Origin: Bacteroides stercorirosoris
Lineage (GTDB): Bacteria > Bacteroidota > Bacteroidia > Bacteroidales > Bacteroidaceae
DNA length: 64,000 nt
Assembly (NCBI RefSeq): GCF_900142015.1
Contig: NZ_FQZN01000001.1
Span: forward strand, 62,001 to 126,000
Direction of reading: 5' to 3'
The translations under genes were made by a program, and so were the position numbers. Below the pieces are notes generated by a model. That model did not search any database. It worked only from the letters and a program-made list of their open reading frames with translations, and had not been told where the DNA came from. Positions 11,855 through 38,220 of the stretch are shown one piece after another (the stretch's first letter is position 1; the number at the start of each line of letters is the position of its first letter).

Positions 11855-11875
11855 CCATACATTAAAACTGATATC

Positions 11876-16780: not shown

Positions 16781-18124
16781 ATGAAGAGTTTGTTTAGATT
16801 ATCAGCATTATTAATGCTGCTTTGCTTTATGGGATGTTCGGACGATGAGGGTATCTCCTATCCTACATCTGATGCCCCGGAAATAAAAGTGTTGCGTGAT
16901 GAATTGTATTCTAATCCCAACAGAAAGTTTGTGATTAAGGCTGATTTAAAAGATGATTTGGGCCTTAAGTCTTTGAAAATTGTGATTCCAGAATTTTATC
17001 TGGATAAGGAAATTGTATTCCCGACAGATACTTTAGTTACAGAATATAAATTGGCTTATGAGTTTCTAGCACCAAAGGATACAAAAAATGAAGATGTATA
17101 TAAAGTAAATCTTGCACTGGAGGATGTTTCTGGAAATATTGTGACCAAAGAGCTTACATTACATTTGGATGGAGACTTTAATGCTCCTAATTTTTCAAAT
17201 GTATCACCACAAGATGGAACGGTACAGCTATTGGAGAGCAAGATGGAATTGTCACTTTCCTTTAAAGTCACTGATGATTCAGGTTTAGATTCAGTATATG
17301 TGGAAGAACCGATACTGGGTATCATGGAAAGAATCAAATTAGACGGCGAGAAAGAGTACTCTTTCAGCAAGACTTATTCTTTACCATCCAAACCGGAAGA
17401 GTATGAACTAAAAATAACAGCAATTGACAACTTTGTAGAAGCTAACAGGAAAACACAGAAAATTAAATATACTGTTTCCAGCGAAATGGTTACTTTATTC
17501 CTGGCCGATGTTCCTAAGGGAACTAATTTAACAGCCGATGTTTGTGGAGTACCGATGCTCTATCATAAAAAATCAAATGGTACATTTACTTTCAAATATT
17601 ATGCAGACTGTGATAACAAGGAAATCTACTTTTTGGGACAGGAAAACTCTTTTGAACCTCATTGTTTCGGTGTATCAGGCGAGAATGGCAAATTACTAAA
17701 CAATCCTTCTGCCGCTCCAATAGTGCTGCCTATAAAGGGATATTATGAGATTGTGGCAAATACCAAGGAGCAGACGTATACTGTGACTCCTTATATACCT
17801 TCTTCAGCAGTGCACGATTCTCCTGATATCACAATGTGTGGTTACGGATTTGAGGGTGCCGGATGGAATCCTTCCAATAAGGATTGCCTACTCACTCCAG
17901 ACGCAGAGAATCCGTATATACTTGGACGAACTCTCATACTGAACGAAACCCAGCTTAATGTAACCATTACTTATCCGGGCTGGAGTAAATACTGGCGCTT
18001 GCTTGAAAATGGTATTATTGATTATATGGGTTCAAGCCAACCTTATTTGAAAGTAAACCAAAAGGGAAGTTATAAATTCATTATTGATACTGAGATTGCA
18101 CGTGCTAAATTACTGAAAGAATAA
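16781..18124 (+). CDS. SusE/SusF-like surface glycan-binding lipoprotein
   Basis: First gene of the large PUL, 447 residues. It has a lipoprotein signal (MKSLFRLSALLMLLCFMGC, lipid Cys at residue 19) followed by acidic residues (SDDEG), the usual Bacteroides surface-export signal. Two Ig-like repeats follow, with matching DDLGLKSLKIVIPE and DDSGLDSVYVEEP segments. C-terminal beta domains carry KGYYEIVANTKEQTYTVTP, which resembles the SusE/F starch-binding modules. It likely holds glycan at the cell surface for SusC/D. Placing it before susC is uncommon, since SusE/F genes usually follow susD. The start is ATG 16781, because the longer frame from 16703 begins inside the upstream stem-loop and lacks a signal peptide. 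Fold assignment is by pattern only. Confidence 0.72.
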   Translation: MKSLFRLSALLMLLCFMGCSDDEGISYPTSDAPEIKVLRDELYSNPNRKFVIKADLKDDLGLKSLKIVIPEFYLDKEIVFPTDTLVTEYKLAYEFLAPKDTKNEDVYKVNLALEDVSGNIVTKELTLHLDGDFNAPNFSNVSPQDGTVQLLESKMELSLSFKVTDDSGLDSVYVEEPILGIMERIKLDGEKEYSFSKTYSLPSKPEEYELKITAIDNFVEANRKTQKIKYTVSSEMVTLFLADVPKGTNLTADVCGVPMLYHKKSNGTFTFKYYADCDNKEIYFLGQENSFEPHCFGVSGENGKLLNNPSAAPIVLPIKGYYEIVANTKEQTYTVTPYIPSSAVHDSPDITMCGYGFEGAGWNPSNKDCLLTPDAENPYILGRTLILNETQLNVTITYPGWSKYWRLLENGIIDYMGSSQPYLKVNQKGSYKFIIDTEIARAKLLKE

Positions 18125-18146
18125 TCATTAAACGATGTATATAGTC

Positions 18147-21100
18147 ATGAAAAGAAATATTATATTTTCTCTTATCGTTTCTTTCTTCTGCCTTGCTGCA
18201 AATGCACAGATAAAGGTTCGGGGAACTATTGTTGACGATAGAAATGAACCTTTGATAGGTGTTAATATCCAGGAAGAAGGAACTACCAACGGTAGTATAT
18301 CTGATGTGAATGGACAATACAGTATAACAGTCACCGGAATAGATTCCAAACTGTCATTCTCTTTTATCTCTTACAAAACCATTGTAGAAAAAGTAGGAAA
18401 TAGAACTGTCATTAATGTAACCTTGGCAGAAGATTCAGAGCTACTTCAAGAAGTGGTAGTGGTAGGCTATGGTGTACAGAAAAAGAGTGATCTAACAAGT
18501 TCCATCTCTTCCGTAAAAGGAAAAGAGGTAAGGTCAATGAACGTGAGCAATGCTACTGAAAGTCTCCAGGGAAAAGTGGCTGGTGTGACAATTGTAGGAG
18601 CTGGAAATCCAGGTGGTCAGCCAAAGGTTTTGATTAGAGGTTTCTCTACCATCAACTTGTCCACTGATCCATTGTATGTAGTTGATGGGGTTCCTATGGG
18701 CGAAGGAATCAATTTCCTTAATCCCAATGAGATTGAGAGCATCGAAGTCTTGAAAGATGCTTCTGCCAGTGCCATTTATGGTAGTCGTGCCTCAAATGGA
18801 GTTATTATGGTTACTACTCGTAAGGGAGTGGAAGGCAAACCTTCATTCTATCTCGATATGCATTATGGTGTGCAAGAGATGAAAAATCCTTATGACATGG
18901 CAGATGCTGTGGAGTATGCTGAAATATTGAATACTGCTGCCCGTCAGGCCGGTTATCCTGAGGAATTTGACAATCCCGCTTCTTTTGCAGGTAAAACAAC
19001 AAATTGGTGGGATGCAGGTATTCGCCAGTTCACCCCTCAATTAAATGCAAGTTTGGGTGTGCAGGGTGGAACGGAGAAGAACAAATACTCGGTTAGTTTG
19101 AATTATTTCCAGCAAGATTCTTTCTATCAGAAGGGAGGATATAAACGATTTACCGCTCGTTTTACCAACGATTATAAGTTTAATAAGCATTTCTCAGCCG
19201 GATTCTCATTAAATCCGCGTTATGAGTCATGGGGTAATCCTACTAATTGGTCGGACTTTGACAGAGTGGATCCGATTACCCCTATTTTCAAGTCTGAAGA
19301 TGAATTGAATGGTACTGAAAATGAATATAGTCTGTATTCCCGTTCTCCGTCTCAAATTTGGAATCCGGTTGGTTATGTTCACAGATGGAATCAAAGCAAT
19401 AATTCTTATGCTTTGTCGTCCTCTGCTTATCTTGAAATCAAACCGATAAAAGATTTGATATTTAGGTCTCAATTCTCCATAGATTTAGATACTCGAATTT
19501 CCAATACGTTTGCACCGGATTTTGTTATTGATGCGGCTCATGAGTTTCAGACAAACAACAAGTTCACGCGTAACAAACCTACTTATCGTAATTGGAGTTT
19601 GCAGAATACGTTGACTTACCTGAAAACTTTTGCGAATAAGCATAATTTTTCTTTTATGGTGGGTAACACCCTGGAAGAATGGAATAGCACTACTTTGTGG
19701 GGAAGCTATGAAAAGATGCCCAACAACTCAGATAATTTGCATGAATTGGATGCCGGTACCGTCAATCCACAAACCGGAGGTAATTCTTCTACCACTTCTA
19801 TTTTGTCTTATTTGGGTAGACTAACTTACAATTATAATGATAAGTATTATCTGACAGCTACTTATCGCGTGGATGGTTCTTCCAAATTCCTGTCTAAGAA
19901 CAAATGGGCCTCTTTCCCTTCGGCTTCCATAGCTTGGCGTATGTCTAATGAACCGTTTATGGAAAGCACAAAGTCTGTGCTTAATAGCCTTAAACTCAGA
20001 ATAGGTTGGGGACGCGTAGGCAATCAGAATCTTCCTTCAGGAGTTTATATGTCTCAATTAGGACAAGGTTACTATGTCTTGGGCGATAATGTGGTGAACA
20101 CAGTTTACCCCAGTTTGGTTAAAAATGAGGATGTGAAATGGGAAACTGTAGAGGATTACAACTTCGGTATTGATTACGGATTATTTGATAATCGTTTAAC
20201 AGGATCTTTTGAGTATTATATAAAGAATACCAGAGATATGCTTTTTCAGAAAGCTTATCCCAGCTATTCCGGCTATCCGGGTGATGCTAAGATTTGGACA
20301 AATGTAGGTTCTATGCGTACCAAAGGTTTTGAAATGACAATCAGCTACAATGACCATTGGGGAGATTTTACCTTTGGAAGCACTTTAAACTTAACTACTT
20401 TCAACGTGAATATGACAGAACTAACAGGCGATAAAGATCCATTGTATGGAAATGGTGAAAAGACAAAGACAATAGAAGGTGAAGAACCTGCTTTCTTCTA
20501 CGGATACGTAGCAGACGGCATCTTCCAAAATCAGATTGAGTTGAATAGCCATACTAACAACAAAGGACAGTTCTTGCAACCTAATGCGCAAGTCGGCGAT
20601 ATTCGATTTAAAGATGTAAATGGAGATGGGCAATTGAATGCAGATGACCGCACAAAGATTGGCTCTCCATGGGCTGATATGACGATGGGGCTTAATCTGA
20701 ATTTAGGTTATAAGAACTTTGATTTAGTGGCAAACTTCTATGCCAGCATTGGCAATGATCTTGTTAATCAGAATATTCAAGAATTGTACAATGCCGCCGG
20801 TAGTGGTGGAAAAGTGAATAAAGTGAGCGGCTTGCTTGATATGGCTTGGCATGGTGAAGGTACTTCCAACTATGTCCCTCGCTTATCTACTCAAGACCAT
20901 AATGAGAACTTTACCAAATTCTCATCTTTCTACATAGAGGATGGTTCTTACTTAAGATTAAAGAATTTACAATTGGGGTATACTTTTAAGAAAATTCCCG
21001 GTGTCAATAAACTGAGATTATATATAGCAGGACAAAACTTGTTTACCTTAACTGGCTATAACGGCGTTGAGCCCGAAGTTTCAGGTAGTGTGTTGAGTTT

Positions 21101-21167
21101 TGGATTTGGCGGATGGACTTATCCAGTACAACGTATATACTCAGTAGGTGTAAATGTAACATTTTAA
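18147..21167 (+). CDS. SusC/RagA-type TonB-dependent outer-membrane receptor
   Basis: A 22-stranded outer-membrane glycan importer of 1006 residues. It has a signal peptide (MKRNIIFSLIVSFFCLAANA), a carboxypeptidase-regulatory-like domain (VRGTIVDDRNEPLIGVNIQE) and a TonB box region ahead of the plug (EVVVVGYGVQKKSDLTSS). The plug motifs PLYVVDGVP and SIEVLKDASASAIYGSRASN are followed by the barrel, ending in an aromatic terminal strand (YSVGVNVTF). ATG 18147 is used, not 18135, because the signal peptide begins there. It pairs with the SusD gene 13 nt downstream. No transmembrane-signalling extension is present, so regulation by an ECF/anti-sigma pair is not suggested. Confidence 0.96.
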   Translation: MKRNIIFSLIVSFFCLAANAQIKVRGTIVDDRNEPLIGVNIQEEGTTNGSISDVNGQYSITVTGIDSKLSFSFISYKTIVEKVGNRTVINVTLAEDSELLQEVVVVGYGVQKKSDLTSSISSVKGKEVRSMNVSNATESLQGKVAGVTIVGAGNPGGQPKVLIRGFSTINLSTDPLYVVDGVPMGEGINFLNPNEIESIEVLKDASASAIYGSRASNGVIMVTTRKGVEGKPSFYLDMHYGVQEMKNPYDMADAVEYAEILNTAARQAGYPEEFDNPASFAGKTTNWWDAGIRQFTPQLNASLGVQGGTEKNKYSVSLNYFQQDSFYQKGGYKRFTARFTNDYKFNKHFSAGFSLNPRYESWGNPTNWSDFDRVDPITPIFKSEDELNGTENEYSLYSRSPSQIWNPVGYVHRWNQSNNSYALSSSAYLEIKPIKDLIFRSQFSIDLDTRISNTFAPDFVIDAAHEFQTNNKFTRNKPTYRNWSLQNTLTYLKTFANKHNFSFMVGNTLEEWNSTTLWGSYEKMPNNSDNLHELDAGTVNPQTGGNSSTTSILSYLGRLTYNYNDKYYLTATYRVDGSSKFLSKNKWASFPSASIAWRMSNEPFMESTKSVLNSLKLRIGWGRVGNQNLPSGVYMSQLGQGYYVLGDNVVNTVYPSLVKNEDVKWETVEDYNFGIDYGLFDNRLTGSFEYYIKNTRDMLFQKAYPSYSGYPGDAKIWTNVGSMRTKGFEMTISYNDHWGDFTFGSTLNLTTFNVNMTELTGDKDPLYGNGEKTKTIEGEEPAFFYGYVADGIFQNQIELNSHTNNKGQFLQPNAQVGDIRFKDVNGDGQLNADDRTKIGSPWADMTMGLNLNLGYKNFDLVANFYASIGNDLVNQNIQELYNAAGSGGKVNKVSGLLDMAWHGEGTSNYVPRLSTQDHNENFTKFSSFYIEDGSYLRLKNLQLGYTFKKIPGVNKLRLYIAGQNLFTLTGYNGVEPEVSGSVLSFGFGGWTYPVQRIYSVGVNVTF

Positions 21168-21180
21168 TAGATTGTAAATC

Positions 21181-22806
21181 ATGAAAAAGAATATATTTGC
21201 TTTCATTATAGCGGCTTCATTGGGATTGGGATTTATGTCCTGTGAAGATTTTATTGAACACGAAAAAAGAGGTGTTCAAGATTTGGATAACTATTTTAAG
21301 ACAGATACAGAATGTCGTGACTTTGTCATTGACTTGTATAAGCGTGCATTGTTGAATAATGACTGGCAGCCGATAGCTCATACCAGAATAACGAATGAAA
21401 CGGCTACCGATGATGCTTGGATGGGAAATACCGGACAATCCGCTGATGGATTCAGTCCAGCTTCGGAATACTTGATCACTCCCAATAGAATGGGATATCT
21501 TACAGATTTATTCAAGGAGAGATATAAGAATATTATGGCATGTAATATTGCCATAAATTCTATTCCCGAAGCTCCTATTTCTGAAGACAAAAAAAAGTCC
21601 TATGTTGGTGAAGCTCTATTTTGTCGCGCATATAATTACTTGGATCTTGTAGGCAATTTTGGGGGTGTACCATTGGTACTTAAAATGCTATCATCCAATG
21701 ATATGAATCTAGGACGTTCTAGTAAAGAAGAAATATATCAGCAAATAGAGAATGATCTTAAGTCAGCCGTTCACATGGTAAATACTACGTATGGAAGTGA
21801 AGGAAAAGGTAGGGCTACTGTATGGACTTGTACTGCATTATTAGCAAGAGTTTCATTATATCAAGGAAAATGGAAAGAAGCTTATCATTATGCAGATACC
21901 ACAATCATGAATAGTGGCTGTAAACTTGAACCTGATTTCCTGGATATTTGGAACGTTAATAATCACAATGGCATAGAATCGCTTATTGAAGTTCAGACAA
22001 GTCCTGAAGTGGGTAAAATTTTGGGCAATCCCCTTTCCACACTTTGTGGAGGACGCGGTGAAAGTTTGGAAAATTTCCCCAGTAAAGACCCCAATGACAT
22101 TATGGATGGTTGGGGATGGGGAGTACCCACCAGCGATTTGGAAAATTGTTATCTTTCGGAAGAAGATGAGATAAGAAGACGCAGTACAATAACGGTATGT
22201 GGTGATGCTGTATATGGTGATGAGGACTTAAATCCTACTTATGTATTTGACTTGGCACAGAACAAATCTGGCCGCGTAATCCGTAAATATTATATTCCTA
22301 TTGCTACTCGCAGGACTTTAGAAAATAAGAGGTATAACGCTCCTTTGAATACACCGATTATCCGTCTGGCAGAGATGTATCTGACCCGTGCGGAAGCAGC
22401 TTTTCACTTGGGTATGCTTGATGAAGCAATGGATGATGTAGATATCATCCGTGCCCGGGTAAAACTCTCTCCAAAGAAAGGGACTGTTTCCGGTAATGCG
22501 GTACTTTATGCTATCTGGAAAGAGCGCAGAATGGAATTGGCATTTGAAGGATTGCGTCTGTTTGATATTAGGAGACAGATAGATCCGGCCACAAATCAAC
22601 CCGTTATAGCTGGTTTGTTCGGTCCGAATGGAAGTTTTGTTCGTTACAATATGTATGAATCAACGGATCAGTATGAAACGAGCAACCTTAAAGAGCTACA
22701 GAACAAAGGTATCAACTTCGATATCAATAAACATTTGGTATGGCCCATTCCTCAATCGGAAATAGACCGTAGTTTTGGTACTGTAACACAGAATCCTAAT
22801 TACTAA
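21181..22806 (+). CDS. SusD/RagB-type glycan-binding lipoprotein
   Basis: A surface lipoprotein of 541 residues that caps the SusC barrel and delivers glycan. It has a signal peptide with lipobox (GLGFMSC, Cys21) and acidic EDF after it. A helical TPR-like core follows, and conserved SusD landmarks are present: RAYNYLDLVGNFGGVPLV, CTALLARVSLYQGKW, IIRLAEMYLTRAEA, WKERRMELAFEGLRLFDIRR, and a C-terminal LVWPIPQSEID. It lies directly behind its susC partner and ahead of the GH30 gene. Confidence 0.96.
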   Translation: MKKNIFAFIIAASLGLGFMSCEDFIEHEKRGVQDLDNYFKTDTECRDFVIDLYKRALLNNDWQPIAHTRITNETATDDAWMGNTGQSADGFSPASEYLITPNRMGYLTDLFKERYKNIMACNIAINSIPEAPISEDKKKSYVGEALFCRAYNYLDLVGNFGGVPLVLKMLSSNDMNLGRSSKEEIYQQIENDLKSAVHMVNTTYGSEGKGRATVWTCTALLARVSLYQGKWKEAYHYADTTIMNSGCKLEPDFLDIWNVNNHNGIESLIEVQTSPEVGKILGNPLSTLCGGRGESLENFPSKDPNDIMDGWGWGVPTSDLENCYLSEEDEIRRRSTITVCGDAVYGDEDLNPTYVFDLAQNKSGRVIRKYYIPIATRRTLENKRYNAPLNTPIIRLAEMYLTRAEAAFHLGMLDEAMDDVDIIRARVKLSPKKGTVSGNAVLYAIWKERRMELAFEGLRLFDIRRQIDPATNQPVIAGLFGPNGSFVRYNMYESTDQYETSNLKELQNKGINFDINKHLVWPIPQSEIDRSFGTVTQNPNY

Positions 22807-22840
22807 TAAACATAAGAGATCAAACTTAAATTTTATAGAA

Positions 22841-24463
22841 ATGAGAAATAGTAAATATTTGCAGATATTAGGTATCTGTACGCTGTTTTCAGTTACGGCA
22901 TGTAGTTCCAATTTGGAGATTCCAGAACCGCCTGTTTACAATAAGGTGAGAAATATTTCAGTAGACTTAAATCAGGAAATGCAGACGATTGACGGCTTTG
23001 GGGCATCAGATGCTTGGCGCTGTCAGATGGTAGGAAAATATTGGCCAGAAGAGAAAAAAAATCAAATTGCCGATTGGCTGTTTAGCCAGGAAGTCGATGA
23101 AAATGGAAATCCAAAAGGCATCGGCTTGTCCATGTGGAGATTTTACATTGGTGCGGGAAGCACAGAACAAGGGCTTGATAGCGACATTGCGGATGAGTGG
23201 AGACGGTCTGAATGCTTTTTATCAGCTGATGGTACTTACAATTGGAATAAATATGAAGGACAGAAATGGTTCTTAAAGGCAGCTCGTGATAGAGGGGTTG
23301 AGCGTTTTCTGGTTTTTAACCTGAGCGCTCCGGTTCATATGTCCATAAATGGGAAAGGCTTTTCAATTAAAGAGAAAAGGATGAATATCAAGGCAGGTAT
23401 GATGCCTGATTATGCAGACTTTTTAGTAGAGTGCATTGATAACTTGCAGAAGAAAGAAGGAGTTAAATTTGATTATTTAAGTCCCGTGAATGAGCCACAG
23501 TGGGATTGGAGTAAAGGCAGCCAGGAAGGGACTCCCGCCACTAATGAAGAAATATCTCAGTTCGTAAAATTACTATCAGAAAGACTCAGCAAAAAAGGAT
23601 TGGCTACCAAAATAGCATTGGGCGAAGCTGGGAGTATTCAATATTTGTATAAAAATGTAAATGATGAGAACATTGATAATCAGATTGATGATTTTTGGAA
23701 TCCGTCATCTCCGTTGAGCATTGCTTCTCTGCCCAATGTAGAACGAGTAATGACTGGACACAGTTATTGGACTGTTTGGCCCGTCAAGGATTTAGTCTCA
23801 CATCGTAAAGCCTTGAATGATAAAATAAAAGAGCATAGCGGATTAAAATATTGGCAAACAGAATATTCTATCCTCGAAAGCCCCGGAGAGTCCGAAATTC
23901 CTAACGGAAACGGAAATAAACGCGATTTGGGTATGCAAACGGCACTTTTTGTTGCACGTACTATCCACAATGATTTAACATTGGTAAATGCCTCCTCTTG
24001 GTCTTGGTGGACAGCTCTTACCCGTGCAGACTACAAGGACGGTTTGGTATATCTGGATGATGGAACAAATAATGGTTCACAAGTTACAAATTATTGCAAG
24101 AAAGATGGATTTGCCAGAGACTCCAAACTTATGTGGATGCTGGGTAATTATTCTTTCTTTGTCCGTCCGGGCATGAAGCGTATTGCCGTTATTACCGAAA
24201 ATCCAGACCCTGAGAAAGAGGGTAAAGATGTTATGATTAGCGCATACAAAGACAGTTCTTCCAAAAAGATAGTTTTGGTGGCAGTTAATGTCGGTTCTGT
24301 CAACCGAAAATATAATCTTCAAGATTTGAAACTGAAGAATCAGACTTTAACTCCTTATACCACTTCTGAAACATCCAATCTAGGAAAGGGAACGGCAATA
24401 AAAACTAATGAGATTGTTGTTCCGGCAAAGTCTGTCGTAACTTTTGTTGGTGAACTGGAATAA
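22841..24463 (+). CDS. Glycoside hydrolase family 30-like exported enzyme
   Basis: A lipoprotein enzyme of 540 residues (lipobox FSVTAC, Cys21). The catalytic (beta/alpha)8 barrel begins at IDGFGASDAWRCQM. The acid/base is Glu218 in SPVNEPQWDW and the nucleophile Glu341 in WQTEYSIL, both intact. A C-terminal beta-domain (about 440-540; RPGMKRIAVIT, ISAYKDSSSKKIVLVAVNVG, PYTTSETSNL) is typical of GH30. Known activities of the family include beta-glucosidase, endo-beta-1,6-glucanase or -galactanase, beta-xylanase and beta-fucosidase, and sequence reading alone does not choose. As the only non-exo-type GH in this PUL it may make the initial backbone cut at the surface. It is 34 nt after susD. 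Confidence 0.85.
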   Translation: MRNSKYLQILGICTLFSVTACSSNLEIPEPPVYNKVRNISVDLNQEMQTIDGFGASDAWRCQMVGKYWPEEKKNQIADWLFSQEVDENGNPKGIGLSMWRFYIGAGSTEQGLDSDIADEWRRSECFLSADGTYNWNKYEGQKWFLKAARDRGVERFLVFNLSAPVHMSINGKGFSIKEKRMNIKAGMMPDYADFLVECIDNLQKKEGVKFDYLSPVNEPQWDWSKGSQEGTPATNEEISQFVKLLSERLSKKGLATKIALGEAGSIQYLYKNVNDENIDNQIDDFWNPSSPLSIASLPNVERVMTGHSYWTVWPVKDLVSHRKALNDKIKEHSGLKYWQTEYSILESPGESEIPNGNGNKRDLGMQTALFVARTIHNDLTLVNASSWSWWTALTRADYKDGLVYLDDGTNNGSQVTNYCKKDGFARDSKLMWMLGNYSFFVRPGMKRIAVITENPDPEKEGKDVMISAYKDSSSKKIVLVAVNVGSVNRKYNLQDLKLKNQTLTPYTTSETSNLGKGTAIKTNEIVVPAKSVVTFVGELE

Positions 24464-24492
24464 TGTAATGAATAACTTAAAATATTGACTCT

Positions 24493-29045: not shown

Positions 29046-31735
29046 AGAAGATTTTGAAACTTTCCTGCGTTGCATTATTGATGTTTTCCTGTACGCCGAC
29101 AGAATCAATAATAGATTTGTCCGGTGAATGGGAAGTAAAGATAGATTCCATACAATGCAAGGTAATGCTTCCGGGCTCTCTTGCCGAAAACAAAGTGGGT
29201 TGTCAGCCCAAAGATTCTGCAACCAATACCCTGACTGAAACCTATAGTTATCAGGGAGCAGCATGGTATGAAAAAGATATTGAAATTCCGGATTCATGGC
29301 AAAATCATCCTATAGAGTTGTTCATGGAAAGAACAAAGGTTTCCGAAGTATTTATCAACGGAACATTTCTAGGAAGCCGGAACAGTGTATCCACGCCACA
29401 TATATATATAATTGATTCGCTGCTTAAAACCGGCAAAAACAATATCAGAATCAAAATAGACAATACAAAAAGCCTACTTCCATTGGGTGGCTCCCATGCA
29501 TACTCTGAACATACCCAGAGCAATTGGAACGGTATTCTCGGTGACTTCCACTTAAGAAAACTACCGGACATCTGTATCCAGCAAATACGAATAGACAGTC
29601 CATCCGATGGTAACTGCCTCATAACGGTATCCCTCTTTAATTATTTAGAGGAAACAAGCAAAGGAATAAAAATAGCAGTTATGGATTCCGAAAACAGCAA
29701 GGTGGCAGAAGAAGTAGTCAATGCATCTATTCCTCAAGGCAAATCCGAGCATACAGTAAAAGTTAGAATCCCCGTTCCGCAGTTATGGGATGAATACACC
29801 CCCTACCTGTATAACTTCCGGATAGAGATACCCAATTATGACTCACGATATGTTCAGACCGGATTAAGAGACTTCAAAACAGCAGGAACACAATTCATCA
29901 ACAATGAAAGAGTAATCTTTTTACGCGGGAAAAACGAAGGCGGAGTTTTCCCGTTGACCGGATATCCAAGCATGGACATCAATGATTGGAAACGATACTT
30001 CGAAACCATCCGTTCCTATGGCATCAATCATGTACGTTTCCATTCATGGACACCTCCCCAGGCAGCCTTCTACGCCGCTGATGAAACAGGTATATTCCTT
30101 CAGCCCGAACTTCCTTTATGGGGAACATATCAAGAAAAGGACACTACCCTCATCTCCTATATGAAACAGGAAGGGAAGAGAATCATTCAAGCATATGGGA
30201 ATCACCCTTCATTTGCCATGTTCAGTTTAGGCAATGAGCTTGAGGGAGACACCGCTATAATGGCAAGTATAGTGAAAGAGTTGAAGCAATATGATAAACG
30301 CCATCTCTATATTTTGGGAACCAACAATCATTACTGGAATCCTCAACCCCATCCAGTAGAAGATTTCTTCGTTGCTATGCGGCACGGAAAAGCGACTGAC
30401 AATAACAGTACAGACTTGCGTGGCTCTTTCTCTTTTGCCGATTCCAATCAGGGAGGTATAATTAATTGCAATGCCCCCAACACCAAGCGTAACTTTGCAA
30501 CAGCCATACAAAACATGGACAAGCCGGTAATAGGACACGAAACCGGCCAATATCAGGTATATCCTAATTTCGAGGAAATAGACAAATATACAGGAGTATT
30601 GCGTCCGCTAAATTTCATGGTATTCAAGAAAAGGTTGGAAAATACCGGTATGGATGCTAAAGCAAAAGATTTTCTGAAAGCATCGGGCGCATTGGCAGCA
30701 TTATGCTACAGAGAAGAAATCGAAATGTCTCTCCGTACTCCGCAGTTTGGTGGTTTTCAATTGCTTGATTTGCAAGATTATCCGGGACAAGGCACTGCTC
30801 TTGTAGGCATTCTTGATGCATTTTTGGAATCCAAGAATGTTATCTCCACAGAAAAATGGAATGAATTCTGTAACGACATAGTACCATTGGCCCGTTTTTC
30901 CAAATACTGCTGGAACACGGACGAAACATTTGTTACAGAAGTCCAGATTACCAACTATGGACAGTCCGATATAAAGGACAAAATCATATCATGCACATTG
31001 TCTACCGAAGATGGAGGAATTCTTTATTCAGAAGATATCGGAAATGCAGCCATTCCGCAAGGCCGATTATCAACTTTCAAAAGTTTACATATACCACTTA
31101 ACCACATAAAGGAATCCCAAAAGCTGACTTTCCGCATTGCCCTAAAAAATACGTCTTACCACAATTCATGGAATATATGGGTATATCCCCGTTATGATAA
31201 AATAAGAGAAGGAGTCATAGACGGAGTAACCGTGACCCGCGATAGTAAAGTCTTCGCAAAATTATATCAAGGAGAAAAACCGGTTTTATATATCCCCAAA
31301 GAAAAGGATATCAAAGGCCAATCAGTAGGAGGACTTTTCATAAGTGATTTCTGGAACTACAAAGTCTTTAACAATGTAACCAAAAGCCTTGGGAAAGAGT
31401 CTTCTCCCGGAACACTGGGATTGCTAATTGAAAATCCGGAACATGGCATTTTCAATTCTTTTCCAACGGATTTCCACTCTAACTGGCAATGGTGGAATAT
31501 TATAAAGAAATCCAGCCCTATAATACTAAATGAAATGCCAAAAGATTATTACCCGATTGTACAGGTAATCGACAATTTCGAACGAAATCATAAGCTAGGG
31601 TTGATATACCAATTACCGGGAACAAAAGCATTAGTATGTTCTTCCGACTTGTTTGCAATAGCTGACGAACCGGAAGTTAAGGCACTTTTCCACAGTTTAT
31701 TAAACTATTTGAAAACAGAGAAAAAACAAAAATAA
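29042..31735 (+). CDS. Glycoside hydrolase family 2-like lipoprotein (GH2 copy 2)
   Basis: An enzyme of 897 residues with a lipoprotein signal (LMFSC, Cys17). It has the same architecture as the GH2 gene at 24493: jelly-roll (YQGAAWYEKDIEIPDSW), Ig domain, TIM barrel and C-terminal amidotransferase-like domain (GLLIENPEHGIFNSFPTDFH). The acid/base is Glu399 in SLGNELEG and the nucleophile candidate Glu500 in GHETGQY. Here Thr replaces the Ile of the other two copies (HEIGQ). ATG 29042 is used because it overlaps the previous stop (ATGA); a longer frame from a TTG at 29024 would hide the signal peptide. Likely surface or periplasm-facing. Substrate unknown. Confidence 0.85.
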   Translation: MKKILKLSCVALLMFSCTPTESIIDLSGEWEVKIDSIQCKVMLPGSLAENKVGCQPKDSATNTLTETYSYQGAAWYEKDIEIPDSWQNHPIELFMERTKVSEVFINGTFLGSRNSVSTPHIYIIDSLLKTGKNNIRIKIDNTKSLLPLGGSHAYSEHTQSNWNGILGDFHLRKLPDICIQQIRIDSPSDGNCLITVSLFNYLEETSKGIKIAVMDSENSKVAEEVVNASIPQGKSEHTVKVRIPVPQLWDEYTPYLYNFRIEIPNYDSRYVQTGLRDFKTAGTQFINNERVIFLRGKNEGGVFPLTGYPSMDINDWKRYFETIRSYGINHVRFHSWTPPQAAFYAADETGIFLQPELPLWGTYQEKDTTLISYMKQEGKRIIQAYGNHPSFAMFSLGNELEGDTAIMASIVKELKQYDKRHLYILGTNNHYWNPQPHPVEDFFVAMRHGKATDNNSTDLRGSFSFADSNQGGIINCNAPNTKRNFATAIQNMDKPVIGHETGQYQVYPNFEEIDKYTGVLRPLNFMVFKKRLENTGMDAKAKDFLKASGALAALCYREEIEMSLRTPQFGGFQLLDLQDYPGQGTALVGILDAFLESKNVISTEKWNEFCNDIVPLARFSKYCWNTDETFVTEVQITNYGQSDIKDKIISCTLSTEDGGILYSEDIGNAAIPQGRLSTFKSLHIPLNHIKESQKLTFRIALKNTSYHNSWNIWVYPRYDKIREGVIDGVTVTRDSKVFAKLYQGEKPVLYIPKEKDIKGQSVGGLFISDFWNYKVFNNVTKSLGKESSPGTLGLLIENPEHGIFNSFPTDFHSNWQWWNIIKKSSPIILNEMPKDYYPIVQVIDNFERNHKLGLIYQLPGTKALVCSSDLFAIADEPEVKALFHSLLNYLKTEKKQK

Positions 31736-31741
31736 AAGAAT

Positions 31742-33517
31742 ATGAAATATCTGTATTTACTATTATGCACATTGTTAGGGTTTGATGTCATGGCACAGAC
31801 CAGTCAACCCTCCGAATTCACGCAAATCCGCCAAGAACTGCAAAAGAAATGGCCGGATAACAGAACTGTAAACCTTGTATTTCATGGCCACAGTGTCCCT
31901 TCCGGCTATGCCAACACACCTAATGTAAAAACACTTCAGGCTTATCCCCACCAAGTTCTGGAAGCCGTCAAAGAAATGTATCCATACGCAGTGGTCAACT
32001 CTATCACCACATCCATCGGCGGTGAAAATGCCGAACAAGGTGCCAAACGGTTCAGACAAGAGGTTCTGCCCCACCACCCGGACGTCTTATTCATAGATTA
32101 TGCTTTAAATGACCGTAGCATCGGATTAGAAAGAGCACAGAAAGCCTGGGAGAAAATGATAAAAGAAGCGCAAAAACAGCATATCAAAGTCATCTTACTC
32201 ACCCCAACGCCCGATCTGACCGAAGATATATCGGATGATAATTCTCCGCTTGAACAACATAGCCGCCAGATACGTCATTTAGCCCACGACTATAAAACAG
32301 GACTGATAGACAGCTATGCAACCTTCAAGGAGAAAAGGAAGAATGGAGAAGATTTGAAAATGTACATGAGCCAAAGCAATCACCCCAATGAAAAAGGGCA
32401 TCATGTGGTGGCCGGGCTTATCTTGAATTATTTCTTCGATGAGGCGAAATGGAACGAATACCACCAAAAGCAAACCATGAAGATCATGAAAAAGGTAGCC
32501 GACTGGCAACTGATGAATTTTGAAAATCAAGTACGGAAAGGCTCCCGATGGGCAAATTCGCATGCCTACTGGGCATGGACTAACGCGACCATGTATATCG
32601 GCATGGCAGAATGGGCGGAGATGTCTGATGACCCCAAATACTGGGATTTTCTGCTCACCATAGGCGAAAAAAATCAATGGCAGACTGGCCCCAGCATCTA
32701 TTTCGCCGATGATATCTGTATCATCCAACCTTATGCCATGTTATTCAATAAATACAAGGAACCACACATGATCAAAAAATCCGTTGAGACCTTGGACACT
32801 CTCATTGCCAACCCCAGACACAACAGCCTGAGCTATTACGCTGACGGTTCACATTCCCGCTGGTGCTGGTGCGATGCCTTGTTTATGGCTCCGACTTCTT
32901 TTGCACGCATCGGAAAAACAACAGGAGAACCAAAGTATTTTGAGTTCATGGATAAAGAGTTCCGAATCACTTATGACAGTCTCTACTCTGCTACCGACAG
33001 TTTGTTTTTCAGAGATACCCGATACATCAACATGCGTGAACAAAATGGGGAGAAAGTATTTTGGGGACGAGGAAACGGCTGGGTGACGGGAGCACTGACC
33101 TTCATCATCGACCACATGTCTGCCCAACATCCCTCACGCACTTTCTATATCAGCCTTTTCAGGCAAATGATGAAAAAGATATCTAAGCTTCAGGATAAAC
33201 AAGGCTTCTGGCACTCTTCTCTACTGGACATAACTTCCTATCCCATGCCGGAAGCCAGTGCATCAGGTTTCTTCACATATAGCTTGTTTTGGGGCCTTAA
33301 TCATGGATATCTTGAAAAAGAAGAATATCTGCCTATCGCAGAAAAGGCATGGAATGCATTGGTTTCCGTCGTACACGAAGACGGCAAGATAGGTTATGTA
33401 CAACCAATAGGAGCTGACCCGAAGAAGGTAGATATGAACGACACAGAAGTGTATGGTACGGGGGCTTTCCTGCTAGCTGCAACCGAATATGTCAAATACT
33501 TAAAGCATACAAAATGA
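31742..33517 (+). CDS. SGNH-type esterase fused to a GH105-like unsaturated uronyl hydrolase
   Basis: An exported two-domain enzyme of 591 residues (signal peptide ends FDVMAQ). The N-terminal domain (about 35-230) has SGNH hydrolase blocks: FHGHSVPSG with the nucleophile Ser in a GHS rather than GDS setting, DYALNDRSIG (block III), and SNHPNEKGHH (block V His). The C-terminal domain (about 255-590) is an (alpha/alpha)6 barrel of GH105 type with SRWCWCDALFMAP (catalytic Asp), GRGNGWVTGAL and YPMPEASASGFF. GH105 enzymes remove 4,5-unsaturated uronic acid from lyase products, and SGNH domains usually remove acetyl or other acyl groups. The fusion implies an esterified uronic-acid substrate. It sits between a GH2 and the lyase-like gene. 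Confidence 0.85.
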   Translation: MKYLYLLLCTLLGFDVMAQTSQPSEFTQIRQELQKKWPDNRTVNLVFHGHSVPSGYANTPNVKTLQAYPHQVLEAVKEMYPYAVVNSITTSIGGENAEQGAKRFRQEVLPHHPDVLFIDYALNDRSIGLERAQKAWEKMIKEAQKQHIKVILLTPTPDLTEDISDDNSPLEQHSRQIRHLAHDYKTGLIDSYATFKEKRKNGEDLKMYMSQSNHPNEKGHHVVAGLILNYFFDEAKWNEYHQKQTMKIMKKVADWQLMNFENQVRKGSRWANSHAYWAWTNATMYIGMAEWAEMSDDPKYWDFLLTIGEKNQWQTGPSIYFADDICIIQPYAMLFNKYKEPHMIKKSVETLDTLIANPRHNSLSYYADGSHSRWCWCDALFMAPTSFARIGKTTGEPKYFEFMDKEFRITYDSLYSATDSLFFRDTRYINMREQNGEKVFWGRGNGWVTGALTFIIDHMSAQHPSRTFYISLFRQMMKKISKLQDKQGFWHSSLLDITSYPMPEASASGFFTYSLFWGLNHGYLEKEEYLPIAEKAWNALVSVVHEDGKIGYVQPIGADPKKVDMNDTEVYGTGAFLLAATEYVKYLKHTK

Positions 33518-35424
33518 GAAATAGACTTTTACTCGCACTGCTCTTTATCCCTTGCCTGCTTTCAGCGCAAAACGGATATTATTTCTTCACTGAAAGCGAT
33601 ATCAGCCAAATACGCTCAGCCGCAAAAACGGAATGGGGAAAGAGCATTATAGAATCACTGAAAGATACCGTGGAAGCCCGGCGAGAATATCCCCTAACCG
33701 TACCTTTACTGGAAGGAGGACATATACACGATTATTTTTGTCCCGAACACAAAGTACGTTTTTCATTTGACTGGAATAAGCCGGAAGCACATTACTGTTC
33801 ACAATGCAAGCATTATTGGACAGGAAATAAGCGTTATGATTGGGCATGGGTAAATGTGGCGCATACTCATAATTACAGCTATCTACGTAACTGTATGTAT
33901 CTTTATCTCGCAACAGAAGAAAGAGTCTATGCGGAATATATCCGGAACATGATGCTGGATTATGCATCGAAATACCTCACATACCTCGAGCACGACACGG
34001 CCAGAAAAGTCGGTCCCTGGGGAGGAAAGATGTTCGGGCAAAGCCTTGATGAGTCCGCATGGGCCAGTGACGCTTGCAGGGCATATATGGTGGCAAAACC
34101 AATCATGACACCGGAAGAAATAAAAGAAATAGAAAAAGGCTACCTGATTCCCTGCTCGCAACTCTTACTGAAAAGAAGAGGCACTGCCAACTGGCAAGTA
34201 TGGCACAATAGCGGACTGATAGCTTTGGGAATAGCTTTACAAGACGACAGTATCATCAACACAGCACTCAATGATCCGGAATGTGGTTATCACGCACAAA
34301 TGGAACGCTACGTTTACAATGACGGCTGGTGGGGTGAAGGTTCGCCCACTTACCATTATTATCCGCTGCATGCCATCATCCTGTCAGCTGATGCCGTACG
34401 CTGCCGGAATATCAACCTGTACGATGAAAAGTTATATAAGATGTTGGCTGCTCCGGCAGCCGGAGCCTATGCCGATTTATATTTCCCCGCACATAACGAC
34501 GGATGGTATGGTGAATCCCTGATAGCCCAGATCAGTTTATACGAAATAGCTTACCAACGCTATAACAATGATCCGTTCTTTATGAATGTGTTGCAACAAT
34601 GCTACCGGTATACTTCAAGAACAGCAGCCGAAGCACTAGAAAACTGCATCGAGATACCCCAAACCAGGTCAATACCTTCCTGGCCGTCCGTACACTTTGA
34701 GAATACCGGATATGCCGTACTCAGGTCAGACGCAAGAACCGTCGTCATCAAGTATGGCCCACATGGAGGCGGACACGGACATCCGGACAAACTCTCTATC
34801 TCTGTTCATAATGGCGACAAAGAAATAGTCTCCGATATGGAGACATGTGCCTACGGCGTACCAGCCTTTACCCAATGGTATCGGAAAACGCTGTCACATA
34901 GCACACTGAGCGTAGATGCAAAAGACCAGAGCGAATCAACAGGCAAGCTGCTCTCTTTCAAAGTCCGCAAAGATGGTGGAGAAGTGCTTGCCGAAGCACC
35001 GGAGGCCTATCCCGGAGTAAGGATGAACAGGAAACTGGTGTTGAAGAAAGACAAACTCACAGATATATATACAGCACTATCGGACGATGAGCATCTTTAC
35101 GATTATGTATTGATACTCACAGAAAAGCCCGTATTCAGCCAAGCCGGAGAATCAATAAATCTGAATGACTCACCGGCTTACAGTTACATAAAAGACGCGG
35201 TTATCAGGAAACAGTCATTCCCTATAAGTTGCAAAGTAGGAAATGCGAGTTTGGTTATTCATATGCCTGACAAACAAGATTTTGAAGTCATCACCGGAGA
35301 AGCCCCCGGAATTCCGCCGGGCAACGGAAGTGTACTGGCAAAGTATGATTCGCCTTTCTGCTATCCTCTCATTATACGAATCAAGGATAAAAACTTTAAG
35401 ATAAGAACTGAATGGAAATTTTAA
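33514..35424 (+). CDS. Heparinase II/III-family polysaccharide lyase-like protein
   Basis: An exported protein of 636 residues (signal peptide ends PCLLSAQ). An N-terminal (alpha/alpha) toroid (about 60-370) contains WQVWHNSGLIALG and YVYNDGWWGEGSPTYHYYPL, where His and Tyr may serve as catalytic acid/base. A C-terminal beta-sandwich (about 390-636) has GPHGGGHGHPDKLSI, the most telling motif of heparinase II/III-type lyases such as the PL15 and PL17 groups. Such enzymes cleave uronic-acid polymers by beta-elimination, which fits the neighbouring GH105 domain. Whether it belongs to a listed PL family cannot be judged by eye. It overlaps the previous gene by ATGA and is 9 nt before the third GH2. 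Confidence 0.82.
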   Translation: MRNRLLLALLFIPCLLSAQNGYYFFTESDISQIRSAAKTEWGKSIIESLKDTVEARREYPLTVPLLEGGHIHDYFCPEHKVRFSFDWNKPEAHYCSQCKHYWTGNKRYDWAWVNVAHTHNYSYLRNCMYLYLATEERVYAEYIRNMMLDYASKYLTYLEHDTARKVGPWGGKMFGQSLDESAWASDACRAYMVAKPIMTPEEIKEIEKGYLIPCSQLLLKRRGTANWQVWHNSGLIALGIALQDDSIINTALNDPECGYHAQMERYVYNDGWWGEGSPTYHYYPLHAIILSADAVRCRNINLYDEKLYKMLAAPAAGAYADLYFPAHNDGWYGESLIAQISLYEIAYQRYNNDPFFMNVLQQCYRYTSRTAAEALENCIEIPQTRSIPSWPSVHFENTGYAVLRSDARTVVIKYGPHGGGHGHPDKLSISVHNGDKEIVSDMETCAYGVPAFTQWYRKTLSHSTLSVDAKDQSESTGKLLSFKVRKDGGEVLAEAPEAYPGVRMNRKLVLKKDKLTDIYTALSDDEHLYDYVLILTEKPVFSQAGESINLNDSPAYSYIKDAVIRKQSFPISCKVGNASLVIHMPDKQDFEVITGEAPGIPPGNGSVLAKYDSPFCYPLIIRIKDKNFKIRTEWKF

Positions 35425-35433
35425 TTTGATATC

Positions 35434-38220
35434 ATGAAAATAAGTAGACTTTTAATTGCCTGGGGCATAATCGCCCTGTTTATGAGTTCCTGCAAACAGC
35501 CAATGCAAGAAATTGACCTGTCAGGAGAATGGGAAGTGGCGCTGGACAGCCTGGATAAAGGAATCTCCGAAAAGTGGTATGCAGAATCCTTTTCTGACCG
35601 GATTCTCCTTCCCGGAACACTTTGTGATGCCGGTTATGGCACTCCCTGTGCCCTTGAGCCTGTTATGGAAAAAGAAATCTTCCTGAATCTGAAACGGAAG
35701 TTCGATTATCTGGGTCCTGCATGGTACAGAAAAGAAATCTCTGTTCCCGAAGAATGGAAAGATAAAGATATAATTCTCACCTTGGAACGTGTCATCTGGA
35801 ACTCTCAAGTATGGATTAACGGAATGCAAGTAGAAGGATTTAATGAAAGTCTTACCACCCCGCATTATTTCAACTTGGGCAAATATCTTGTTCCGGGAGA
35901 GAACAACGTGATTGCCATCCGCATCGACAACCGCAGACAGCATGATATCTCCATCAGAAACCTGGCACATGCCTACACCAATGATACCCAGACCATTTGG
36001 AACGGCATCTTAGGTAAGATTGCGCTGACTGCCAAAGATAAAGTCCGGATTGAAGAACTACGTTTAACTCCCAATATTGACAATCAGACGGTTAATGTCA
36101 CTGTAAAAATAGGGAGCGATGATACGGCTCTTGTGTCCGGAAAGCTCCGGCTATCCGTGAAAGACCCGAAAGGGAATAAACTTCCGGAGAGAGAAGTAGA
36201 GATAAACAGCATGGAAACAACCTTTGAATACTCGGTTGAAGACGCCATGTTATGGGATGAATTCACCCCCAACATCTACGAAGCGACCGCCACTCTTGAA
36301 GTCGGAAACATGACTGACTCCAAAAGTGAAACATTCGGTATGAGAAAACTGACCAATAAAGAGGCCCTTCTGCAAATCAACGACCGCAGACTTTTCCTTA
36401 GAGGTACACTGGAATGTTGCATTTTCCCCCTGAAAGGTTATCCTCCAACGGACAATGCCGGTTGGGAGAAAGTCTTCAATGCCGCCCGAAATTACGGTTT
36501 GAATCACATACGCTTCCACTCTTGGTGTCCGCCGGAAGCAGCTTTTGACGTGGCAGACAAAATGGGCTTTTACCTTCAGATAGAATTACCTTTATGGGCA
36601 CTTAATGTGGGAGAAGACCCGAAAACTGTAGATTTCCTGTATGATGAAGCCAAACGCATCATGAAAGAGTATGGCAATCATCCTTCCTTCTGTTTCTGGA
36701 GTTTGGGTAACGAGTTGCAGGGAGATTTCAGTGTGATGGATAAGCTGCTCACCACTATCAAGCAAGAGGATAAACGGCACTTGTATATGACCACTACATT
36801 CACGTTTGAACCCGGGCATGGCAGTTGGCCCGAGCCCAACGACGACTTCTGGGTTAGCCAATGGACCAAGAACGGCTGGGTACGCGGACAGGGCATCTTT
36901 GACGATCAGCCCGCAAGCTTCAACAAAGATTTCTCCACTGCAATAGAAGGTTTACCTGTTCCACTCATTACGCATGAAATAGGGCAGTACAGCGTATTCC
37001 CCAACCTGAAAGAAATTGATAAATACACCGGCAACCTACTGCCTTTGAATTTTAAAGCGGTAGCCAAAGACCTTGAGAAGAAAGGAAGACTGTACTTGGC
37101 CGAAGATAACCTGATGGCCAGCGGAAAACTTGCCGCCATCTTATATAAGGAAGAAATAGAACGGGCACTCAAAACTCCCGGATTCAGTGGCTTCCAGTTA
37201 TTGGATTTACACGACTTCCCCGGTCAGGGCACAGCACTTGTCGGAATCATCGATGCTTTCTGGGAAAGCAAGGGATTAATCACTCCTGAGGAGTTCCGAC
37301 AATTCTGTTCACCGATAGTTCCTTTGGCCCGGTTTGAGAAAGCAACCTACATAAACAATGAGACTTTTGAAGTTCAGTTTGAAGCCGCCAACTTCAGTGA
37401 CAAGGCACTGAATGATGTCCAACCGGAATGGATATTGAAAGATTCTAAAGGCTCCACCATCGCAGAAGGAAAACTGGAGAAACAAGAAGTAGCAATCGGT
37501 AATGCCTTAAAATTGGGAAATGCATCCATCCCCTTGAAACCGGTAGCAAAGGCCGACCGCCTCACTTTATCCATTCAGTTTGCAGGTACCGACTACCGTA
37601 ATTCCTGGAATATCTGGGTATATCCGCAAGAAATGCCGGAGGTTGGTACTGAAATTGCTTACACACGAAGCTTTGCCGATGCAGAGAAAGCACTCAACCA
37701 AGGAAAGAAAGTCCTACTGAATCCTGCCCAAGAAGATATCAACGGATTGGAAGGTAAGTTTGTGCAAGTATTCTGGAGTCCTGTTCACTTCCCCAATCAA
37801 CCGGGAACAATGGGCATCCTTTGCGACCCGGCACATCCCGCACTGGCTGATTTCCCGACCGAAATGCACAGCAACTGGCAATGGTGGGATATCTGCAAGA
37901 ATGCAACAACTATGGAACTCGATAGTCTGAAGAACAACATGCAGCCCATCATAAGAATGGTTGACAACTTCTATAAGAACCGGAACTTGGGTTTGCTGTT
38001 CGAGGCAAAAGTTGGAAACGGAAAATTGCTGGTGTGCAGCTCGGACTTGATAAAAGACCTCGATTCCCGTCCGGTATCCCGGCAATTACGTTACAGCCTA
38101 TTGAAGTACATGGGAAGCAGCGCATTCCATCCGGAAGAAGAGCTTTCATTCGAACAGATCAAAAAGGTCCTTCATAATGTGAACAAGAAAAAAGAAGAAA
38201 AGAAATCTATCTATGAATAG
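35434..38220 (+). CDS. Glycoside hydrolase family 2-like lipoprotein (GH2 copy 3)
   Basis: Last gene of the PUL, 928 residues, with lipobox FMSSC (Cys20). Architecture is as in the other two GH2 genes: jelly-roll (YLGPAWYRKEISVPEEW), Ig domain, TIM barrel and C-terminal amidotransferase-like domain (GILCDPAHPALADFPTEMHS). The acid/base is Glu427 in SLGNELQG and the nucleophile candidate Glu515 in ITHEIGQY. The stretch after it (FPNLKEIDKYTGNLLPLNF) is shared with GH2 copy 2 but not closely with copy 1, so copies 2 and 3 seem nearer relatives. GC content is visibly higher than in copy 1. The tail is lysine-rich (NKKKEEKK). A terminator hairpin follows at 38236. Confidence 0.85.
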   Translation: MKISRLLIAWGIIALFMSSCKQPMQEIDLSGEWEVALDSLDKGISEKWYAESFSDRILLPGTLCDAGYGTPCALEPVMEKEIFLNLKRKFDYLGPAWYRKEISVPEEWKDKDIILTLERVIWNSQVWINGMQVEGFNESLTTPHYFNLGKYLVPGENNVIAIRIDNRRQHDISIRNLAHAYTNDTQTIWNGILGKIALTAKDKVRIEELRLTPNIDNQTVNVTVKIGSDDTALVSGKLRLSVKDPKGNKLPEREVEINSMETTFEYSVEDAMLWDEFTPNIYEATATLEVGNMTDSKSETFGMRKLTNKEALLQINDRRLFLRGTLECCIFPLKGYPPTDNAGWEKVFNAARNYGLNHIRFHSWCPPEAAFDVADKMGFYLQIELPLWALNVGEDPKTVDFLYDEAKRIMKEYGNHPSFCFWSLGNELQGDFSVMDKLLTTIKQEDKRHLYMTTTFTFEPGHGSWPEPNDDFWVSQWTKNGWVRGQGIFDDQPASFNKDFSTAIEGLPVPLITHEIGQYSVFPNLKEIDKYTGNLLPLNFKAVAKDLEKKGRLYLAEDNLMASGKLAAILYKEEIERALKTPGFSGFQLLDLHDFPGQGTALVGIIDAFWESKGLITPEEFRQFCSPIVPLARFEKATYINNETFEVQFEAANFSDKALNDVQPEWILKDSKGSTIAEGKLEKQEVAIGNALKLGNASIPLKPVAKADRLTLSIQFAGTDYRNSWNIWVYPQEMPEVGTEIAYTRSFADAEKALNQGKKVLLNPAQEDINGLEGKFVQVFWSPVHFPNQPGTMGILCDPAHPALADFPTEMHSNWQWWDICKNATTMELDSLKNNMQPIIRMVDNFYKNRNLGLLFEAKVGNGKLLVCSSDLIKDLDSRPVSRQLRYSLLKYMGSSAFHPEEELSFEQIKKVLHNVNKKKEEKKSIYE

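Follow-up and report, generated by a model that had tools for sequence, protein, structure and literature searches.

A 64,000-nt stretch of the 6.27-Mb genome of Bacteroides stercorirosoris (hereafter the window) carries ten genes at 16703-38220, all on the plus strand without a break, that probably form a polysaccharide utilization locus (PUL) of the orphan PL17 type, i.e., one combining polysaccharide lyase (PL) family 17 with glycoside hydrolase (GH) families GH30_4, GH105 and GH2, and working by the mechanism proposed below. Their order is surface glycan-binding protein (SGBP), SusC, SusD, GH30, GH2a, a 601-residue protein that we call unk601, GH2b, SGNH-GH105, lyase and GH2c, with gaps of -4 to +34 bp (Table 1), as described by an earlier sequence-only reading of this DNA (nine genes plus the SGBP gene, unbroken on one strand). 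This PUL belongs to a kind already in print and orphaned since 2018 or earlier; its unusual component is unk601, apparently unreported in print (it was not found in the open-licence PubMed Central (PMC) literature, which cannot be searched by sequence).

Gut PL17 loci other than alginate loci have been divided into two sets (Mathieu et al., 2018; PMC5966431). The first combines PL17, GH30_4, GH105 and GH2, with a sulfatase in a Tannerella strain, and saponin glycans were proposed as its substrate, none being demonstrated there (PMC5966431). The window holds all four families (the GH30_4 member as a GH30_4-like enzyme, GH2 in three copies), and the one-strain sulfatase recalls two related loci described below, L073 and L101. 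Beyond the first set, the window has the SGNH-GH105 fusion, the triplication of GH2 and upstream genes for a major facilitator superfamily (MFS) porter, a DUF5107 protein and an AraC-type regulator; no unk601-like protein or appended module is mentioned in the paper's text, outside which lie its Figure 4 and supplement (PMC5966431). The second set is characterized by GH31, GH63, GH92, GH2, GH3 and GH43_2 (PMC5966431) and resembles loci in which unk601 is fused to the lyase (L067, L117, L118): among the six genes scanned there, we found GH92, GH3 (twice) and GH2, together with a GH99-like gene (33.2 bits against a cut-off of 33) and a SASA esterase. The text of PMC5966431 mentions no fusion for this set either. 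The sequence-only reading had not recognized the gene set as a known PUL; the combination had in fact been described, yet as a PUL without a substrate, and the open-licence PMC literature yielded neither a characterized counterpart with an assigned substrate nor any paper assigning one to a PUL of the window's type.

A PL17 lyase from a gut Bacteroides has already been tried on a wide panel of glycans. Bacint01566, the B. intestinalis PL17 enzyme of subfamily 1, was inactive on alginates, xanthan, gellan, pectins, hyaluronan, chondroitins, dermatan sulfate, heparin, heparan sulfate, heparosan and ulvan, and lacked the glucuronan activity of its relatives (PMC5966431). Pectins, gellan, glycosaminoglycans (GAGs), xanthan, ulvan and alginate, the first three of which the sequence-only reading had proposed as substrates to try, have thus been offered to a PL17 of a non-alginate subfamily; arabinogalactan proteins (AGPs) and gums are not among the substrates listed for it in the text of that paper (PMC5966431). 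The recombinant proteins measured 71-85 kDa (PMC5966431), so Bacint01566 is not a fusion of ~1220 residues. We liken this enzyme to the window's lyase by PL17 type, not by established orthology.

The window's lyase matched PL17 alginate lyases in phmmer searches (best E 2.9e-24, to AlgL17), and its AlphaFold2 model, built with 15 homologs (predicted local distance difference test score, pLDDT, 86.8; predicted template modeling score, pTM, 0.86), has the PL17 fold. The best Foldseek E-value was 3.6e-28 (8BDD), the top ten rows were all PL17 (four enzymes), and comparison by VIA gave Z 28.6-31.6 with a root-mean-square deviation (rmsd) of 2.5-3.0 over 546-552 residues for eight PL17 entries, the next family being a GAGase at Z 26.3. 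Beyond the fold, the lyase has in common with the PL17_2 exo-alginate lyases (Alg17c 4NEI, AlyA3 7BM6, BoPL17 8BDD) one catalytic Tyr, Tyr258 of Alg17c aligning with Y280 (invariant in 15/15 aligned homologs; L102, where the gene is split, L116 and L118 were left out of this alignment), and the Asn of an Asn-His pair, Asn199/His200 of AlyA3 aligning with its Asn226/Trp227. It differs from these enzymes in its locus partners, in a shorter loop where the second catalytic Tyr falls (Tyr450 in Alg17c; an invariant Y447 lies nearby) and in the replacement of the His by Trp, both pair positions being invariant in all 15 homologs. The Asn-His pair neutralizes charge and has been called conserved among PL17 enzymes (PMC12336832). 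The window's lyase departs from PL17_2 at the His, and by this residue it is a candidate member of the non-alginate clade. Near its N-terminus, a CPxH...CxxC motif (residues 76-98), of which three Cys and the His are invariant in 15/15, is possibly a metal site. The lyase had three more matches in its own genome, all weak (E 5.7e-7 to 3.5e-4).

The solved structures nearest to the lyase are thus alginate lyases, which would speak for an alginate utilization locus; we regard this reading as extremely improbable, since the pair His is a Trp in every aligned homolog and no PL6-type match (Pfam, E 0.001) was found among the genes of 16703-38220. We know, moreover, of no role for GH105, GH30 or GH2 in alginate degradation. 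The alginate locus was ruled out on the His-to-Trp change, the missing PL6 match and the published inactivity on alginate of all five PL17 enzymes tested from the non-alginate clade (PMC5966431). The expectation that a lyase accompanied by a GH105 would mean a uronic acid-bearing glycan is supported, the lyase having a PL17 fold.

The second gene of interest, unk601, has a signal peptide-like N-terminus without a lipobox (by eye). Searches of Pfam and NCBIfam at E ≤ 0.001 came back empty (as did NCBIfam at E ≤ 1; a single Pfam match, E 0.023, fell under its cut-off), and Protein Data Bank (PDB) sequences gave no match at E ≤ 1 (0.38 at best with a profile). Scanning genome contigs gave 138 loci with an unk601 relative, nearly all Bacteroidota by record title (one Thalassovita, three "uncultured bacterium"); the best 80 of the 138 were fetched, and 54 of these were aligned with the window's copy. 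None of the 55 members had a Pfam match above cut-off. The model built from these 55 sequences and searched as a whole chain (pLDDT 90.4, pTM 0.90) returned no match at E ≤ 0.001 with Foldseek among 339 in the PDB and 283 in BFVD, and VIA gave at most Z 7.2 (rmsd 6.9), its best rows, all weak, being OspA, porins, MORN and Rhs-like sheets. The same kind of search reached E 3.6e-28 with the lyase model, although that was built on fewer aligned sequences (15 vs. 55). The absence of fold matches for unk601 does not in itself establish a new fold. A beta-propeller was tried for it and seems unlikely: the FG-GAP_3 matches are sub-threshold, and propellers such as PL25 (5UAS) were reached only at E 0.18 and rmsd 21.6.

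The distribution of unk601 links it to the lyase. Within the genus, the lyase occurs in 10 of 149 genomes (E ≤ 1e-60) and unk601 in eight of 149 (E ≤ 1e-30), the two draws being taken as the same set on their agreeing handles, and all eight unk601-positive genomes are among the 10 with the lyase (hypergeometric P 9e-12, uncorrected for relatedness). Six of these eight encode both in one open reading frame (ORF) of ~1220 residues; the two domains were mapped in five of the fusions (L116-L119, L122), and that of genome G482 was called from match coordinates. In G442 (L120) the two genes are adjacent in the same order as in the fusion, and in the window two genes lie between them. In a tree of 15 lyases, the fused L061 and the unfused L120 group together (ultrafast bootstrap 99), away from the other fusions (100); with fusions in two separate lyase clades, either the joining happened twice or it was reversed at least once. 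When loci were reached through the lyase instead (the window, L101-L104 and L115-L122, of which L101-L103 come from one genome and L104 is a 12-kb contig; the lyase places of G482 and G577 were left out), nine of the 13 also held unk601 (the window, L101, L102, L116-L120, L122). Both genes are rare in wider samples, with unk601 in 5/151 genomes of the family and 2/295 of the class, and the lyase in 3/295 of the order and 1/295 of the class.

Several observations weigh against a tight bond between the two. The lyase was found at only five of the 80 unk601 loci (L061, L067, L072, L073, L075), many of these stretches ending at contig ends, and at none of four unk601 stretches from other genera of the family (one of 4 kb, two apparently the same contigs as L066 and L091). 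Genome G254 carries unk601 without the lyase, and two members of the genus, G563 and G577, carry the lyase without unk601. In G524, a second genome of the genus discussed below, the lyase is still an open frame despite the loss of a GH2a-unk601-GH2b cassette, so the cassette is dispensable there or the locus is decaying. That unk601 is a dedicated PL17 partner everywhere is ruled out by the 5/80 loci and by G254.

Its other associations are broader. A fusion to a sulfatase occurs in L026 (9929-13162, by Pfam) and L029 (by length and similarity), and in L056 (9794-14902) unk601 is fused to DUF4962 and a SASA esterase domain. In L093 and L095 (8975-11695), it follows ~338 residues of other sequence in the same ORF, similar to a separate 326-residue ORF in L081. 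A co-directional neighbor lies within 100 bp of 58 of the 80 unk601 genes, and a SusC- or SusD-type gene (by clustering) in 40 of the 80 stretches. Of 128 co-directional neighbors within 300 bp, 99 remained after removal of near-duplicates and 80 were scanned (19 exceeded the size limit); the top 25 of 97 families include sulfatase (6), GH2 (5), SASA (4), DUF4962 (4), Hepar_II_III (3), BNR_4 (3), GH92 (3), GH88 (2) and PL8 (2). DUF4962 is also present in known GAG lyases (PMC7904915, PMC11262172). Taken as suggestive, these neighbor families point to acidic glycans, without specificity.

What unk601 does may be gauged from its conservation. The 55-member alignment has 74 invariant columns, of which 34 lie at positions 328-411 and include Arg, Glu, Trp, His, Tyr, Gln and Cys, polar residues as in an active site, and most copies stand alone at ~600 residues (9 of the best 80 exceed 680). 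This invariant polar cluster and the stand-alone secreted form lead us to favor, by a modest preference, an enzyme over a binding module. The alternative, which we hold to be the lesser possibility and which these same two features oppose, is a non-enzymatic, Ca2+-binding glycan-binding or scaffold module that would hold the lyase on its substrate; it would account for Asp occupying 26 of the 74 invariant columns, for the weak FG-GAP_3 matches (17/55 members at E ≤ 0.1, best 0.0082) and for the position of unk601 N-terminal to enzymes of three kinds in the fusions. Taking unk601 as an enzyme, it is tempting, as a tentative proposal, to see in it the founder of a new family of carbohydrate-active enzymes, possibly of a new all-beta fold, whose target would be the uronate linkage on which the non-alginate PL17 lyases act.

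The remaining enzymes bear on the substrate. GH30 has NEP and WQTE motifs and each GH2 has GNE and HE[IT]GQ motifs, which we take to hold the catalytic glutamates. For GH30 the nearest solved structure is 3CLW (E 1.3e-97, the next at 1e-26), a GH30_4 member in a family whose mechanism uses two glutamates (PMC13431644), and GH30_4 includes two characterized beta-D-fucosidases (PMC5966431). The three GH2 enzymes were indeed divergent, as first read (34-38% mutual identity), and all are nearest to 8U01 (E 2.7e-155 to 2.3e-198), the sole solved-structure match at E ≤ 1e-25 for GH2a and GH2b and by far the best for GH2c; each may remove a different sugar, as suggested earlier, though the nearest solved structure is the same for all three. 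The structure 8U01 belongs to GH2_20, a subfamily with beta-galactosidase activity (PMC12243196). Both placements, GH30_4 and GH2_20, are by nearest solved structure and not by CAZy's own subfamily models, and against the NCBIfam model of the BT4151 exo-beta-1,4-galactosidase the three GH2 enzymes scored 698-892 bits, under its cut-off of 1500. The fusion of SGNH and GH105 in one ORF was borne out by domain matches: its GH105 part scored 304 bits against PF07470, with GH105/GH88 enzymes as the closest solved structures (nearest 4CE7, E 1.9e-62). At E ≤ 1e-100, this protein was found in 2 of 201 genomes of the family, full-length only in the window's own genome. Acyl removal by the SGNH domain is a weaker claim than first made: of the usual blocks of such domains it shows GHS (with its Ser), ND and, in the last one, the His, but Gln stands where Asp is usual.

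The GH2_20- and GH30_4-like enzymes speak for beta-galactosyl or beta-fucosyl neighbors, and the substrate is likely an acylated glycan bearing beta-glucuronate and beta-galactosyl or beta-fucosyl residues, which may be of arabinogalactan type, of saponin type, or another microbial or algal glycan. A specifically arabinogalactan-type target, with the lyase cutting Rha-GlcA-like caps (rhamnose-glucuronic acid), the GH105 taking the unsaturated GlcA and the GH30 and GH2 enzymes trimming beta-galactan side chains, seems to us possible though rather unlikely. It would draw on PF14587, which covers endo-beta-1,6-galactanase-like enzymes too, on a gene of the galactosidase family GH59 in L101, and on sulfatases in L101 and L073; the GH30, however, is nearest to GH30_4, and no GH30_5 structure was among its listed matches. 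The sulfated-AGP loci of P. plebeius likewise use GH105 with a sulfatase, and GH2 is among the families named for AGP loci, but the characterized PUL5 of that species works with GH145 and the exo-beta-1,3-galactanase GH43_24 (PMC8406133); the window instead carries a PL17-fold lyase, the GH30_4-like enzyme and unk601. Pfam and NCBIfam gave no GH43 match in the locus, GH43_24 included, and the general library scans, in which the presence of a GH145 model was unchecked, no GH145.

Still less probable, in our view, is the glycan of a small glycoconjugate, e.g., triterpenoid saponins carrying GlcA, beta-D-fucose, beta-galactose and acyl groups. A lyase can act only where the uronate is substituted at O-4, whereas the GlcA of many saponins carries its substituents at other positions; the complete SusCD/SGBP system also points to a larger glycan. 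To its credit, the SGNH domain could strip acyl groups, two GH30_4 members are beta-D-fucosidases, and saponins were proposed for the first PUL set (PMC5966431).

Related loci show that the gene block is more than a chance assembly, since a near-identical order, with an inserted sulfatase, recurs in L073, a contig of an uncultured Proteiniphilum. It reads GH30, GH2a, unk601, GH2b, sulfatase, SGNH-GH105, lyase and GH2c (truncated where the stretch ends), with protein identities of 65-77%, and ahead of these genes stand one for SusD, one for a DUF4625 protein and a further sulfatase; tracing SusC in that Proteiniphilum genome gave 56 matches, and the remainder of the locus was not located. In L072 and L101 the gene order differs: they hold GH2a, a separate SGNH, the lyase, another GH2, GH30, unk601, GH105 and a sulfatase, which was called by similarity in L072 and by Pfam in L101. 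In L101 the GH59-family gene (2221-4167, minus strand) follows, next to a 579-residue gene without Pfam match (471-2210, minus strand).

G524, a draft of ~210 contigs compared through stretches L115 and L130 with DNA identity in 500-bp bins, keeps AraC, MFS, DUF5107, SGBP, SusC, SusD, GH30, SGNH-GH105, lyase and GH2c in order. Short remnants of the GH2a 5'-end persist where the cassette is gone (L115 ~15880-16100), which makes this loss probably the derived state. Identity to the window is 78-88% in one flank (6.5-10.5 kb) and 95.6-99.4% over 11.5-16.5 kb; it falls to 85-88% over 16.5-17.5 kb, where the SGBP gene has its 5' part, and then lies at 91-99% over 17.5-24.5 kb and 91-98% over 31.5-34.0 kb, before dropping inside the lyase gene to 72-81% at 34.0-38.0 kb (lyase 3' part and GH2c). 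This mosaic would be in keeping with interspecies recombination or transfer involving a section of the locus. A 14-genome control gave a signal in one genome, Bacteroides ihuae, and was not used.

From the gene content, order, nearest families, predicted folds and conservation given above, we infer the following catalytic steps, substrate and role for unk601. The SGBP and SusD would capture an acidic glycan on the cell surface for import by SusC, as is usual for these families. Inside the envelope, the PL17-fold lyase would break the chain by beta-elimination beside a uronic acid that is 4-substituted and probably beta-glucuronate, the GH105 would take off the resulting unsaturated uronate, and the SGNH domain might strip acyl groups. 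The three GH2_20-like enzymes and the GH30 would trim beta-galactosyl or beta-fucosyl residues, and unk601 would share with the lyase the acidic part of the glycan as its target, either as an enzyme in its own right (the more likely case) or as a large binding partner dependent on Ca2+. The AraC-type regulator would provide control, and the MFS porter would take part in import.

The MFS and DUF5107-TPR (tetratricopeptide repeat) genes lie directly upstream in the same direction, the latter kept beside the PUL in G524; the DUF5107-TPR protein is probably cytoplasmic, having no obvious signal peptide, and the divergent AraC-type gene is the probable regulator of the block. A Bacteroides-type promoter pattern matched three times in 64 kb (2.4 expected) and never ahead of the block, and sigma-70 and terminator scans stayed at or below shuffled controls, so the transcription unit is argued from gene spacing and conserved order. 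The ATGA overlaps that the sequence-only reading had called many do exist, at three of nine junctions (GH2a/unk601, unk601/GH2b, GH105/lyase). Its ten-gene inventory was right, though the GH30 and the 601-residue protein were not singled out and the upstream MFS and DUF5107 genes fall outside it. The SGBP start that it placed at 16781 is an internal Met (MKSLFRLSALLMLLCFMGC) of an ORF opening at 16703, and is nonetheless the plausible start of a lipoprotein, with a lipobox-like LLCFMGC seen by eye. GH2b probably does not start at the TTG (29024) given in the ORF list. The PUL had no match in a plasmid collection at megablast sensitivity. Further along, the window holds a separate PUL at 55852-63465, made up of another SusC/SusD pair and, after it, a GH92-family gene and a 185-residue ORF without Pfam match; a phage-type integrase gene (49889-50839) lies between the two PULs; no search was aimed at mobile elements.

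Table 1. Genes of the PUL and its upstream region in the B. stercorirosoris window.
Feature	Coordinates	Strand	Basis
AraC-type regulator with cupin sensor domain	10814..11692	-	Pfam; 97% amino acid identity and adjoins block in G524
MFS sugar porter, XylE-like	11852..13261	+	397 bits vs. model cut-off 608; 99.6% amino acid identity in G524
DUF5107 + TPR protein	13360..16683	+	Library match; 97% amino acid identity in G524
SGBP, surface glycan-binding lipoprotein	16781..18124, first ATG 16703	+	DUF4625 and SusF_SusE matches, both below cut-off
SusC-type TonB-dependent transporter	18135..21167	+	TIGR04056, 872 bits
SusD-type lipoprotein	21181..22806	+	PF07980, PF14322
GH30	22841..24463	+	Nearest GH30_4 structure 3CLW; NEP and WQTE motifs; lipoprotein-like start
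GH2a	24493..27243	+	Nearest 8U01 (GH2_20); GNE and HEIGQ motifs
unk601, uncharacterized 601-residue secreted protein, Asp-rich repeats	27240..29045	+	Lyase-fused in other genomes of the genus
GH2b	29042..31735	+	Nearest 8U01 (GH2_20); GNE and HETGQ motifs
SGNH esterase-like domain (N-terminal) + GH88/105 unsaturated glucuronyl hydrolase domain (C-terminal)	31742..33517	+	PF13472 + PF07470
PL17-fold polysaccharide lyase	33514..35424	+	PF07940; predicted fold; one key residue unlike alginate lyases
GH2c	35434..38220	+	Nearest 8U01 (GH2_20); GNE and HEIGQ motifs; lipoprotein-like start

The link to unk601 offers a concrete lead for an orphan kind of PUL, the B. intestinalis PL17 lyase having failed on a wide panel of substrates. 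If the proposed role of unk601 is right, non-alginate PL17 lyases such as Bacint01566 may have seemed inactive for having been assayed without their unk601 partner and the right substrate, and the natural unk601-PL17 fusion would be a reagent to reveal the activity. More broadly, the unk601 family, often beside and sometimes fused to lyases, sulfatases and esterases, may be an enzyme family that has so far been missed.

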